64,000 bases of DNA, taken from contig NZ_PISP01000001.1 of NCBI RefSeq assembly GCF_002834295.1, forward strand, positions 1,426,001 to 1,490,000. Reading direction: 5' to 3'. Shown here in pieces: positions 42,125-46,130 of this stretch. Source of the stretch: Rhodohalobacter barkolensis (GTDB taxonomy: Bacteria > Bacteroidota > Rhodothermia > Balneolales > Balneolaceae). The stretch's first letter is position 1; every line of letters begins with the position of its first letter. Below the pieces are notes generated by a model. That model saw nothing but the letters and a program-made list of their open reading frames with translations, made no database searches and was not told where the DNA came from. The position numbers were made by a program, and so were the translations under genes.

Positions 42125-42206
42125 CGATATTCATTTTTTATTGATTTGATTGCAGATATCACATTTTCTATTAAAAAATCATTTCCTTCTTGCATTTCAT
42201 TTATAT

Positions 42207-42222
42207 TACTACTTATTTAGTA
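42207..42222. promoter_or_regulatory. Candidate BlaI/MecI operator
   Basis: TACTACTTATTTAGTA is a 16-base interrupted dyad, 38 bases upstream of the BlaI-type gene start codon. It agrees at 14 of 16 positions with the TACTACATATGTAGTA type operator known for MecI/BlaI. It lies between the divergent photolyase and BlaI genes and would allow the repressor to control itself and possibly the photolyase. Confidence 0.6.
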
Positions 42223-42260: not shown

Positions 42261-42638
42261 ATGCGCAGATCACTCACACCGCTTGGAGAAACTGAAATGG
42301 AAATTCTGCACCACGTTTGGGAACTGGAAGAAGCCTCAGTTGCTGATGTTCGTGAAAGAATGCTTGAATACCGAGAGGTAGCTTACACCACAGTAATGAC
42401 CATCATGAAGAACCTTGCAGACAAAAAATTCCTCAAATATCGAAAAGAGGGGCTCAGTTACATTTACAGTGCTGCCATAAATCCTGATGAAGTTCGCGGA
42501 AATCTGGTCCACGAAATTGTAGATAAGGTTTTTAAAGGCTCCACTAAAGATCTTGTTCAGGCACTGGTTAATAAAGAGAACCTTACGGCGAAAGAGCGGG
42601 AAGAGATCAAAAATTTGATTGATAATCTGGAGGATTAA
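42261..42638 (+). CDS. BlaI/MecI/CopY family transcriptional repressor
   Basis: 125 residues. A winged-helix DNA-binding domain (residues about 1-75): LTPLGETEMEILHHVWELEEASVADVRERM with the recognition helix in VAYTTVMTIMKNLADKKFL, followed by a wing. The C-terminal half is helical and mediates dimerisation. BlaI-family repressors are cut by the partner sensor protease, releasing operons. The gene is 3 bases ahead of an M56 protease gene, the classic BlaI-BlaR1 pairing. A likely operator is at 42207-42222. Confidence 0.95.
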   Translation: MRRSLTPLGETEMEILHHVWELEEASVADVRERMLEYREVAYTTVMTIMKNLADKKFLKYRKEGLSYIYSAAINPDEVRGNLVHEIVDKVFKGSTKDLVQALVNKENLTAKEREEIKNLIDNLED

Positions 42639-42641
42639 ACC

Positions 42642-44618
42642 ATGGATGTATTCATCTTTCAACTTTCCGAATTTGCACAGCTTGTTTTTGAAACTATCTG
42701 GCTGCCACTTGTTATCTGGACAGTTATTAGTTTTGGTGTATGGTTATTCCTGCAAATGTTTGAAAACGTCCACCCGATCTACCAGTATCACACACGTCTG
42801 GCCCTGATCTTTTCTCTCCCTGCCGGGCTCCTCTCTTTGGCATCCATTCATTATATCTCAGACTGGATCACAGCTTCTGCAGGTGAGGGATTGACCATGA
42901 TTACCGTGATCAGCCCAATAGATATCTCGTTTACTCAGGTTGAGGAGTCTTCCGGAATTCCTTTTATGGTGATAGTCCAATCTTTGGCTGTCGCTATCTT
43001 TTTATCAGGTATGATATTTTTCCTGATCCGATTTTGCATGCACGCCATAAACCTGAAAAAACTGCGCAAATCGTTGAACTACATGCCAATATCCGAAGTG
43101 ACAGCTTTATCTCCTGAAAACAGAGGTTTAGCTTTGGCTACAGGTAAAAATGTTCAGGTGGCATTCCTGAGTTCAGAGATTATTCCGGTCACTTTTGGTT
43201 TTAGAAAACCTGTGATTCTACTTCCCGATTCGCTGAAGAGTCAACCCGAGAAATTAAACCTCGGACTACGGCATGAACTGACTCACATCACACAGCACGA
43301 CTTTTCCTCTCATCTGATGGTCATTTTGACCGAAGCAGTTTTTTGGTTTCACCCGATGGTACACCGTCTCAAGCGTGAACTTGTGGAGTACAGGGAGATG
43401 AGATGCGACAATATTGTACTGAGTGAAGCATCCGTATCGCGAAAAGAGTACGCTTCACTGCTGCTTGAGCTGATACCGATGCCTAATCTCAATAAAGAAC
43501 TTTCCGTAAATATGGCTCAGGAATCTTCAAACCTTAAAAAGAGGATCACGATGATTACTCAACAATCCAAAACCAAACCTATACCGAAACGCACCAGCCT
43601 TATGATACTGGGAGTCATATTCATCTCAACAGCACTTGCCATGGCCTGCACCGATATGCAGACACAGAACGTGTTTGATGAAGAAGAACTCGATTTGATG
43701 ACAAACATTGACAAAACTGGAGAGCAGGGCTATCATGAAATCATCATTTATATGAGCGAGGAAGAGCAGGCAAACCGCCACGAAAGCAAACTAGAACAAC
43801 TGCGAATGTTGGAACCCGAACATATCGATGCCATCCAAGTCTGGAAAGGTGAGCAAGCCGTAGAGCGATTTGGCTCTCGCGGTGAAAAAGGTGTCATCCA
43901 AGTCAGAACCAAACTGGACGCCGAATCCTACAATAATACACTCAAAGCGCTGGGGATGAATCCCGTTGCACCTGAATCACTCACTGCTCAAAACAGTGAA
44001 TCCTCCCCGCAAGATGATTTCTTTGTAGTCGTTGAGGAAATGCCGGAACTGATAGGTGGGCTTGAGTCACTTCAACAGCAAATTCAATACCCCGATATGG
44101 CCCGGCGAGCCGGAATTGAAGGACGAGTATATGTCCAGTTTATCGTGGATGAAAATGGGAATGTTGATGATCCAAGAATTATCCGTGGTATTGGTGGAGG
44201 GGCGGATGAAGAAGCACTCAGAGTTGTAAGTCAGGCAAAATTCAAACCGGGAATGCAGCGCGGTAGACCCGTGAGAATTCAGTATTCACTTCCGATTATG
44301 TTCAAGCTTGGTAATGAAGAAAACGGAAATGTTGAAAACAGCTCAGGTGGGTCAGCACAGGTTGAATCTCCTGAAACGATGGAAAAGAGAATGATTGTAG
44401 AGGTTAATAATGACGATGGAAAAATTAGCGGCACCGTACTGGATGGTGAAACCCGGCAGCCACTTGCCGGTGCAAATATTACGATTGCTGGATCCGATGT
44501 AGGTGCATCAACAGACATGGATGGGAATTTCTCGATCGACGCCGATGGGTCCGGAGAATATGAGCTGATTTTCACTTACATCGGTTACGAGAAAGCTTCA
44601 TTGAGTATCACACGCTGA
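42642..44618 (+). CDS. M56 (BlaR1-type) membrane metalloprotease with plug-like, TonB C-terminal and carboxypeptidase-regulatory-like domains
   Basis: 658 residues. Three N-terminal membrane segments (about 15-38, 50-70, 105-130) precede a Zn site HELTH (211-215) in a cytosolic protease domain, with E252 in VEYREMRCDN as probable third ligand. A further helix (about 320-338) leads to the periplasm. Periplasmic order: a plug-like motif (LEPEHIDAIQVWKGEQAVERFG...GVIQVRTK, about 392-428), a TonB_C-type domain (ELIGGLESLQQQIQYPDMAR to PIMFKL, about 470-562), and a carboxypeptidase-regulatory-like barrel (GKISGTVLDGETRQPLAGANI to the end). The last two are in an unusual order. It likely senses an envelope signal and cleaves the repressor. 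A strong terminator follows. Confidence 0.92.
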   Translation: MDVFIFQLSEFAQLVFETIWLPLVIWTVISFGVWLFLQMFENVHPIYQYHTRLALIFSLPAGLLSLASIHYISDWITASAGEGLTMITVISPIDISFTQVEESSGIPFMVIVQSLAVAIFLSGMIFFLIRFCMHAINLKKLRKSLNYMPISEVTALSPENRGLALATGKNVQVAFLSSEIIPVTFGFRKPVILLPDSLKSQPEKLNLGLRHELTHITQHDFSSHLMVILTEAVFWFHPMVHRLKRELVEYREMRCDNIVLSEASVSRKEYASLLLELIPMPNLNKELSVNMAQESSNLKKRITMITQQSKTKPIPKRTSLMILGVIFISTALAMACTDMQTQNVFDEEELDLMTNIDKTGEQGYHEIIIYMSEEEQANRHESKLEQLRMLEPEHIDAIQVWKGEQAVERFGSRGEKGVIQVRTKLDAESYNNTLKALGMNPVAPESLTAQNSESSPQDDFFVVVEEMPELIGGLESLQQQIQYPDMARRAGIEGRVYVQFIVDENGNVDDPRIIRGIGGGADEEALRVVSQAKFKPGMQRGRPVRIQYSLPIMFKLGNEENGNVENSSGGSAQVESPETMEKRMIVEVNNDDGKISGTVLDGETRQPLAGANITIAGSDVGASTDMDGNFSIDADGSGEYELIFTYIGYEKASLSITR

Positions 44619-44660
44619 GCCATAGCGTGCGGATTGAAGAGTCGGTTTCCGATTCTTTTC

Positions 44661-44700
44661 AAAAGCGAAATCCTTCACGGGGTTTCGCTTTTTTGTTTTT
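44661..44700 (+). terminator. Rho-independent terminator after the M56 gene
   Basis: AAAAGCGAAA (44661-44670) pairs with TTTCGCTTTT (44683-44692), extended by weaker pairs, then TTTTGTTTTT. It is 43 bases after the stop and separates the sensor from the two lipoprotein paralogues. Confidence 0.8.
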
Positions 44701-44755
44701 CCTGATTTTGTGTATTCTCTGTCTATCTATTTATCGGTAAACCCAAAAGAACTCT

Positions 44756-45457
44756 ATGGCTATTCCTAGAAATATAACCTGTGCAATTTTTACAGTTATC
44801 TCATTTCTCCTGATTGTTTTGATTTTTTCTTCGTGCAGCAGTTCAGAGAAATTAACAGATGGAAATCTGGATCATCTCAATCTCAATGTTGAAAGCCCTC
44901 AATCGAATGATGACAATTATGTAGTTCAAATAGAAGGATTTCAAGATGATGGCGGAGAGGACTACAAATCAGTGCTGCAACGATTAGAACGACATGAGTG
45001 GGATGACATCGTATCAGTAGATGATAGTTCAAGTACGGAAGAGAAAAATATTCAGGTCGAAATTCTTAATCGTCCTGAATCATTAAACAGGGTATTGTGG
45101 CAGATCAGTATGGAGCACTATCGCAACCACGCCGTTGATTACACACCTGATCATCAAGACGGTGAATCCTTGATTATGAGCGAAATGCCCGAACTTATCG
45201 GCAGTTTTAATGAGCTGCAGAAAAAAGTTCACTATCCTTCTCATATGGAGGGAACAGGAATTGAGGGGCGAGTAGATCTTGTCTATGTAATCAACGAATT
45301 CGGTGAGGTAACGGACCCGGAGGTTGTAGGAGGTGTACATCAAAGCCTGAACAGGGAAGCCATCAGGGTGATTCAGCTTGCAAAGTACAAGCCTGGAATG
45401 ATGAATGGATTACCGGTAAAAGTGAAAATGAACGCTCCTATATTTATCAGGGAATAA
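44756..45457 (+). CDS. Lipoprotein with plug-like remnant and TonB_C-type domain (paralogue 1 of the M56 periplasmic part)
   Basis: 233 residues. A signal peptide of about 30 residues ends FSSCSSSEK (lipobox). The middle (residues about 55-130) has QIEGFQDDGGEDYKSVLQRLER and ESLNRVLWQISMEH, which line up with YMSEEEQANRHESKLEQLRML and ESYNNTLKALGMN of the M56 protein. The end is a TonB_C-type domain: SEMPELIGSFNELQKKVHYPSH, EGRVDLVYVINEFGEVTDPEV, KYKPGMMNGLPVKVKMNAPI. It thus keeps the periplasmic half of the sensor without protease or membrane helices. Function unknown; a soluble binding or decoy partner of the sensor is plausible. Confidence 0.85.
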   Translation: MAIPRNITCAIFTVISFLLIVLIFSSCSSSEKLTDGNLDHLNLNVESPQSNDDNYVVQIEGFQDDGGEDYKSVLQRLERHEWDDIVSVDDSSSTEEKNIQVEILNRPESLNRVLWQISMEHYRNHAVDYTPDHQDGESLIMSEMPELIGSFNELQKKVHYPSHMEGTGIEGRVDLVYVINEFGEVTDPEVVGGVHQSLNREAIRVIQLAKYKPGMMNGLPVKVKMNAPIFIRE

Positions 45458-45473
45458 ACAAATAAATGACCTA

Positions 45474-46130
45474 ATGATTCGATATCTCAATCCCTTCCTT
45501 TTTATTTACTGCCTGCTCATTACCGGCTGCGGAAGCAGTTCGAATGTTCAAGAGAATAATCTAAATTCCCTGAATCTTGAGGTTAACCTGGCCGATGAAA
45601 ACAGTTCTTATCATACAATCACACTTTCAGGATTCAACCAGGAGATTCAAAATCAATATGATGTAACTGTTCAAAAACTTGAAGCGCTCTCTCCGGAAGA
45701 CGTAAAAAAAATTGATCAAAGTGCAGATCAAATTGCTGCCACAATTAAGGATGACCCAATCTCTTACAATCGCGTTCTGTGGGCGCTGGGCAGTGAACAC
45801 TTCAAGGAACATTCTACAGATTACGAAAGTCCGGAACCCACAGCTTCTGACTGGGATGAAATGCCTGAACTGAACGGCGGAATGAATGCCCTGATGTCTG
45901 AGGTCCGTTATCCGGAAGAGCTCAATGGACTGGGGGGACAAGTTATGGTAGAATTTATTGTCACTCGTTTTGGAGATGTGAAGGATCCATTCGTTACACG
46001 CTCCCTGCACTCAGCAGCAGACCATGAGGCGATTCGTGCTATAAAAAAGATGAAATTTAAGCCCGGTATTATAGATGGAGTTCCGGTACAGGTCAAATTC
46101 ACAGCACCCGTCTTTTTCAGAAACCGTTGA
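45474..46130 (+). CDS. Lipoprotein with TonB_C-type domain (paralogue 2 of the M56 periplasmic part)
   Basis: 218 residues, lipobox ITGC at about residue 19. Order as in the preceding gene: LSGFNQEIQNQYDVTVQKLEALSPEDVKKID, then YNRVLWALGSEH, and EMPELNGGMNALMSEVRYPEEL-GGQVMVEFIVTRFGDVKDPFV ending KPGIIDGVPVQVKFTAPVFF. It is closer to the M56 protein in the N-R-V-L-W-A-L-G segment than the neighbour is. Sixteen bases separate the two lipoprotein genes, so they are one operon. Three tandem related periplasmic domains from one locus is unusual. Confidence 0.85.
   Translation: MIRYLNPFLFIYCLLITGCGSSSNVQENNLNSLNLEVNLADENSSYHTITLSGFNQEIQNQYDVTVQKLEALSPEDVKKIDQSADQIAATIKDDPISYNRVLWALGSEHFKEHSTDYESPEPTASDWDEMPELNGGMNALMSEVRYPEELNGLGGQVMVEFIVTRFGDVKDPFVTRSLHSAADHEAIRAIKKMKFKPGIIDGVPVQVKFTAPVFFRNR

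Follow-up and report, generated by a model that had tools for sequence, protein, structure and literature searches.

Why would a membrane sensor be accompanied by stand-alone lipoproteins built like its own periplasmic half? This question is raised by a four-gene locus of Rhodohalobacter barkolensis (Balneolaceae, Bacteroidota) at positions 42261–46130 of the window analysed here, that is, the whole stretch of 64,000 nucleotides from contig NZ_PISP01000001.1 (positions 1,426,001 to 1,490,000). All four genes lie on the forward strand. The first, blaI (42261–42638), encodes a 125-residue repressor of the BlaI/MecI/CopY family (Penicillinase_R in Pfam, 2e-30) and is separated by 3 bases from the gene for a 658-residue M56 sensor protease (42642–44618); downstream come two lipoprotein genes, LP1 (44756–45457, 233 residues) and LP2 (45474–46130, 218 residues). 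We consider it nearly certain that the lipoproteins are homologous to the sensor half of the M56 protein and were derived from it by duplication. The explanation proposed for the locus as a whole, to which we give an even chance, is that of a BlaI–M56 pair whose sensor half was duplicated into lipoproteins that compete for, or present, sites on receptors. The architecture departs from the BlaI–M56 systems described so far, and a role in sensing receptors is plausible for it.

Homology of the lipoproteins to the sensor ectodomain

The M56 protein consists of an M56 domain (residues 88–305), a fourth transmembrane helix (TM4) ending at Cys336, a plug-like motif (395–424), a TonB_C domain (480–556) and a CarboxypepD_reg_2 domain (595–657), as identified with Pfam, NCBIfam and an AlphaFold2 (AF2) model of the ectodomain. 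Its Pfam matches are Peptidase_M56 (4.8e-29, with the HExxH of this domain present as HELTHI), TonB_C (7.4e-23) and CarbopepD_reg_2 (1.3e-17). The plug-like motif scores 14.8 bits against the SusC/RagA signature of NCBIfam, below the cut-off of 46.2, yet it is kept across M56 orthologues as IxSIxVLKGxxAxxxYGxRGxxGVI. The first-pass annotation, which had described a plug-like motif, a TonB_C-type domain and a regulatory-like barrel outside the membrane, is thus borne out. The signal peptides of the lipoproteins end in sequences that read as lipoboxes, FSSC27 in LP1 and ITGC19 in LP2, and their TonB_C domains (residues 157–229, 7.5e-14, and 144–216, 4.7e-12) exceed the Pfam cut-off, as does that of the M56 protein.

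The three proteins share more than TonB_C. In an alignment of M56 proteins from TM4 onward with nine lipoprotein sequences (one of them lacking its Cys because the contig ends first), the lipoproteins can be aligned from the signal peptide, opposite TM4, through the end of TonB_C; the lipobox Cys aligns across the lipoproteins and coincides with the Cys that closes TM4. The motifs NRVLW, EMPEL and KPGM or KPGI of the lipoproteins correspond to YNNTLKALG, EMPEL and KPGM in the M56 protein. When the middle segments were compared without TonB_C, the lipoprotein and M56 profiles matched with hhalign P values of 1e-7 (local) and 5.6e-7 (global), colinearly, from just past the Cys to NRVLW. LP1 residues 3–232 also match M56 ectodomains of relatives. 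The homology of the three segments, which had been read from motif order and spacing, therefore holds, and the alignment, the lipoboxes and the lipoprotein clade described below agree with the suggested duplication into stand-alone, membrane-tethered forms. The description of the lipoproteins as copies of the periplasmic half needs trimming: they comprise the signal/TM4 part, the middle segment and TonB_C, and they have neither the plug signature nor the CarboxypepD_reg "barrel".

Predicted structures tell the same story. The AF2 models of LP2 and the M56 ectodomain reach pLDDT (predicted local distance difference test) values of 85.0 and 84.8, respectively, and agree in how the elements of the middle segment follow one another: strands at 16–20 and at 28–34 or 30–35, a helix at about 41–53 and a strand at about 59–66. 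A helix at the plug signature (68–79) follows in the M56 protein and is missing from LP2, after which both continue with a strand and a helix; apart from this one helix, structure prediction thus upholds the proposed relationship. The models are in part dependent on each other, since the alignment behind the LP2 model also contained M56 ectodomains. The best PDB match found by Foldseek was for both models the FoxA-bound C-terminal domain of TonB (6i97_D for LP2).

When did the duplication occur? Lipoproteins of this kind occupy the blaI–M56 site in 7 of 92 Balneolaceae genomes, two each in R. barkolensis and G076 and one each in G042, G044, G047, G048 and G058, while elsewhere in the family the site is mostly intact and has none. 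In all six lipoprotein genomes with a readable flank the lipoprotein stands directly downstream of the M56 gene, the gene order expected by the first-pass annotation; in G047 a contig end falls within the lipoprotein gene, so that M56 is not seen there. All nine lipoproteins form a single clade (support 100/100) with two subtypes, A, which includes LP1, and B, which includes LP2. By this tree they are old paralogues from one duplication that later split into two subtypes, and a recent duplication of the local M56 gene is ruled out. They may have arisen within the Rhodohalobacter-type M56 clade or outside it (approximately unbiased (AU) test, p 0.41; p 0.15 for the closest M56 group).

Outside the class of Rhodohalobacter, genome G260 has a BlaI–M56 locus (L232 1505-3804) with a 167-residue lipoprotein downstream of M56. 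This protein aligns to TM4 and the ectodomain, Cys on Cys, is 56% identical to the M56 protein of a relative (G159), and apparently represents a second case, independent of the one in Balneolaceae. Stand-alone secreted TonB_C proteins near M56 genes are also found in G159, G093 and G119. Open reading frames of 221–257 residues behind M56 in other genera (L067-L074) were rejected as candidates, being multi-span membrane proteins.

M56 proteins with a TonB_C ectodomain recur in Bacteroidota. That of R. barkolensis is 74% identical to its orthologue in Rhodohalobacter halophilus, another member of the family, which has a single lipoprotein of this kind, and the neighbourhood (a photolyase-like gene, blaI–M56, PspC and an oxidoreductase) is syntenic over much of Balneolaceae. 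Variants of the M56 protein were encountered as well: one (L057 5753-7840) carries an extra C-terminal motif resembling the plug signature (YGAEGADGVVVITTK) beyond the CarboxypepD_reg-like part, and another (L078 5343-7061) has a tandem pair of TonB_C domains where the middle segment normally lies.

Probable operator, terminator and RNA hairpin

How is the locus transcribed? Upstream of blaI lies a perfect match to the dyad TTACTA-N5-TTAGTA (42206–42222, forward strand). This dyad or a close variant precedes blaI in nearly all orthologous loci and is probably the BlaI operator. None was found upstream of the lipoprotein genes. Between M56 and LP1 there is an intrinsic terminator (44663–44694, forward strand; a hairpin of 14 pairs and a T run), and a strong terminator at this place (about -18 to -21 kcal/mol) is kept in 6 of the 6 lipoprotein genomes with a readable gap. 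Because of this terminator and the restriction of the operator to blaI, a transcript shared by M56 and the lipoproteins is unlikely, and the initial reading of a single operon was dropped in view of the conservation of the terminator in six genomes. LP1 and LP2, with a gap of 16 bases, may have a common transcript. A search of the genome for the operator returned one further perfect site (C6:272187, L153 1501-1517), about 38 bases before the gene for a predicted lipoprotein of 367 residues; this site was not used as a regulon member, as by our own estimate chance alone would yield about one and as, with one mismatch allowed, a reversed control pattern outscored the true pattern in number of matches.

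The end of the M56 gene holds a second conserved structure, which, like the TM4 cysteine considered below, was not part of the first-pass annotation. An RNA hairpin (44611–44629, forward strand) overlaps the stop codon; its loop, GAGCCAU, and its inner stem are invariant, and the terminator follows, so that the element spans 44611–44694. Across 22 sequences, the hairpin's three outer pairs vary with both partners replaced (AU/CG/UA/GC). Taken jointly, hairpin and terminator have 96.5% of cells paired, and 0 shuffles attain the covariation score. A covariance model finds the element at E < 1e-8, in one copy each, in 27 Balneolaceae genomes, most of which also supplied sequences for the model. 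Besides the R. barkolensis locus, the element is present in L039-L042, L044, L045, L047-L051, L053-L055, L059-L061, L064, L066, L072 and L078. Copies whose flanks were inspected come after M56, whether or not lipoproteins are present. A decayed orphan copy with a partly broken stem and an intact loop lies in G063 (L194 3943-4006, minus strand), with no M56 gene nearby. An Rfam search returned matches at chance level only. The hairpin is a candidate RNA family; it could be a small RNA derived from the 3' untranslated region or a protein-binding site.

Possible roles of the lipoproteins

One duplication of the sensor half (TM4, middle segment and TonB_C) gave rise to a separate lipoprotein gene immediately behind M56. 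In the working that we propose for the locus, the TonB_C domain of the M56 protein would dock on TonB-dependent receptors, at the TonB box or the plug region; altered docking would lead the cytoplasmic M56 domain to cleave BlaI, and BlaI would govern its own operon through the conserved operator. TonB_C is the part with which TonB normally holds the import channels of the outer membrane. In the M56 protein it shares 80% and 65% identity with its counterparts in the two TonB proteins of the genome, which makes contact with TonB-dependent receptors the simplest guess for the signal; that the domain senses the state of receptors seems to us evenly poised between right and wrong. A search of Creative Commons-licensed PubMed Central (PMC) text found no described signal or mechanism for M56–TonB_C proteins. 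The TonB_C domains of the lipoproteins are 42–49% identical to the others. Since the lipoproteins keep this fold but not the protease, the transmembrane bundle or the plug signature, they would bind where the sensor binds on a receptor and send no signal, as lipid-anchored competitors that set the threshold of the sensor; alternatively, they could be adaptors that present the state of a receptor to the M56 protein. The role of competitors, rather than something else, is put forward tentatively and falls somewhat short of an even chance.

Several points weigh against this explanation. The lipoproteins are dispensable for the M56 protein, because they are present in only a small minority of family genomes. 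Their rapid divergence and the loss of the plug signature may indicate another role. The terminator and the missing operator speak against co-regulation with M56, and no target of BlaI other than blaI itself emerged. Finally, we infer receptor binding, signal and output alike, for the M56 protein and the lipoproteins, from sequence.

Some of the same observations (the terminator boundary, the absence of an operator, the patchy distribution and the loss of the plug signature) would also suit lipoproteins that were derived from M56 and then recruited to a non-signalling task in the envelope, such as the assembly or energising of particular receptors, in which case their location would be a relic of their origin. 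The persistence of the lipoprotein beside M56 in every lipoprotein genome with readable flanks argues against such a recruitment, as does the similar arrangement that arose in another family, and we regard it as doubtful.

Equally doubtful in our estimation is that the lipoproteins mimic a processed sensor. Here TM4 would be an internal lipoprotein signal, the ectodomain would be lipidated at Cys336 and perhaps cut by signal peptidase II, and LP1 and LP2 would supply the product without the protease. TM4 (residues 312–336; 43575–43649, forward strand) has the lipobox-like end ALAMAC-TD. All 36 Balneolaceae M56 proteins whose TM4 can be read have this Cys, with A or S before it and [TS]-[DE] after it, under a search pattern that itself required C[TS][DE]; two additional rows fall outside the pattern, a truncated open reading frame and a tandem paralogue whose TM4 ends in AMTFTEIQ. 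Tandem M56 gene pairs behind a single blaI were seen in L051 and L061, and the first copy in L051 has no TM4 Cys. When 69 TM4 segments from Bacteroidota at large (some of them from Balneolaceae) were scanned, 34 contained a Cys in that stretch, for the most part at this same register where TM4 ends, with at least eight families represented, and A, G or S nearly always precedes it; loci with [AGS]-Cys beyond R. barkolensis include L084, L093, L100, L116, L120, L130, L230-L232 and L238. With such a conserved lipobox-like Cys, TM4 resembles a lipoprotein signal set within a multi-span protein, and lipidation or release of the ectodomain is possible. Furthermore, the lipobox Cys of the lipoproteins aligns to the M56 Cys in two apparently independent cases, and in the BlaR1-type family TM4 runs from inside to outside, as a signal peptide does. 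On the other hand, the Pro at -3 of some lineages departs from the classical lipobox, and many Bacteroidota M56 proteins have no Cys in TM4. We know of no instance of signal peptidase II cleavage inside a polytopic protein, and the PMC text searched held neither such a case nor a lipobox in connection with BlaR1. The Cys may instead have a structural role. A broader version is slightly less probable still: in many Bacteroidota M56 proteins TM4 would act as an internal lipoprotein signal, signal peptidase II would release the lipidated ectodomain to reach outer-membrane receptors, the lipoproteins would be gene-encoded versions of it, and the stop-codon hairpin may contribute regulation through RNA.

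It is very improbable that LP1 and LP2 are ordinary stand-alone TonB-like proteins with only TonB_C in common with M56 and an otherwise convergent resemblance: such proteins are common in Bacteroidota, some of them near other M56 genes, but the middle segment matches the M56 ectodomain without TonB_C and is unlike the proline-rich linker found in the TonB proteins of this genome.

If the proposed competition or presentation is true, detached forms of the sensing end may adjust the very sensor to which they are related. Natural stand-alone sensing halves also offer a handle, as they lend themselves to production as soluble domains, to use as baits for receptors and to deletion that leaves the protease intact, and the lipobox-like end of TM4 suggests a maturation step that is open to experiment.

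Comparison with known systems

Like BlaI–BlaR1 and MecI–MecR1, the locus joins a BlaI-family repressor gene to one for an M56 zinc protease with four transmembrane helices, an HExxH between TM3 and TM4 and a C-terminal ectodomain past TM4. Unlike theirs, which is class-D beta-lactamase-like, the ectodomain here combines a plug-like motif, TonB_C and CarboxypepD_reg, with lipoprotein paralogues of the ectodomain downstream and a TM4 that closes with a lipobox-like Cys. Pfam and NCBIfam revealed no penicillin-binding or beta-lactamase domain in the M56 protein, and its match to the BlaR1 equivalog of NCBIfam is limited to residues 111–334 and reaches 82.9 bits, below the cut-off of 400; it is therefore a relative of BlaR1 and not BlaR1 itself. 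The proteolysis of BlaI assumed above is modelled on BlaR1 (PMC7593790).

With TonB energy transducers, M56, LP1 and LP2 share TonB_C (PF03544), here fused to a protease or anchored by lipid. The N-terminal transmembrane helix, coupled in TonB to ExbBD, and the proline-rich spacer are found in both TonB proteins of the genome (L002, L003) and absent from M56 and the lipoproteins. SusC/RagA TonB-dependent receptors resemble the M56 ectodomain in CarboxypepD_reg_2 and the plug-signature-like motif; unlike them, the M56 protein has no barrel and its motif is below the family cut-off, and the lipoproteins have neither feature. The functional parallel is cell-surface signalling, with its receptor signalling domain, anti-sigma factor and regulated proteolysis (PMC7593790). 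As in that system, an inner-membrane protein, here M56, may sense receptors of the outer membrane and respond by proteolysis, whereas a repressor and a protease would replace the sigma and anti-sigma factors and TonB_C would be the domain of contact.

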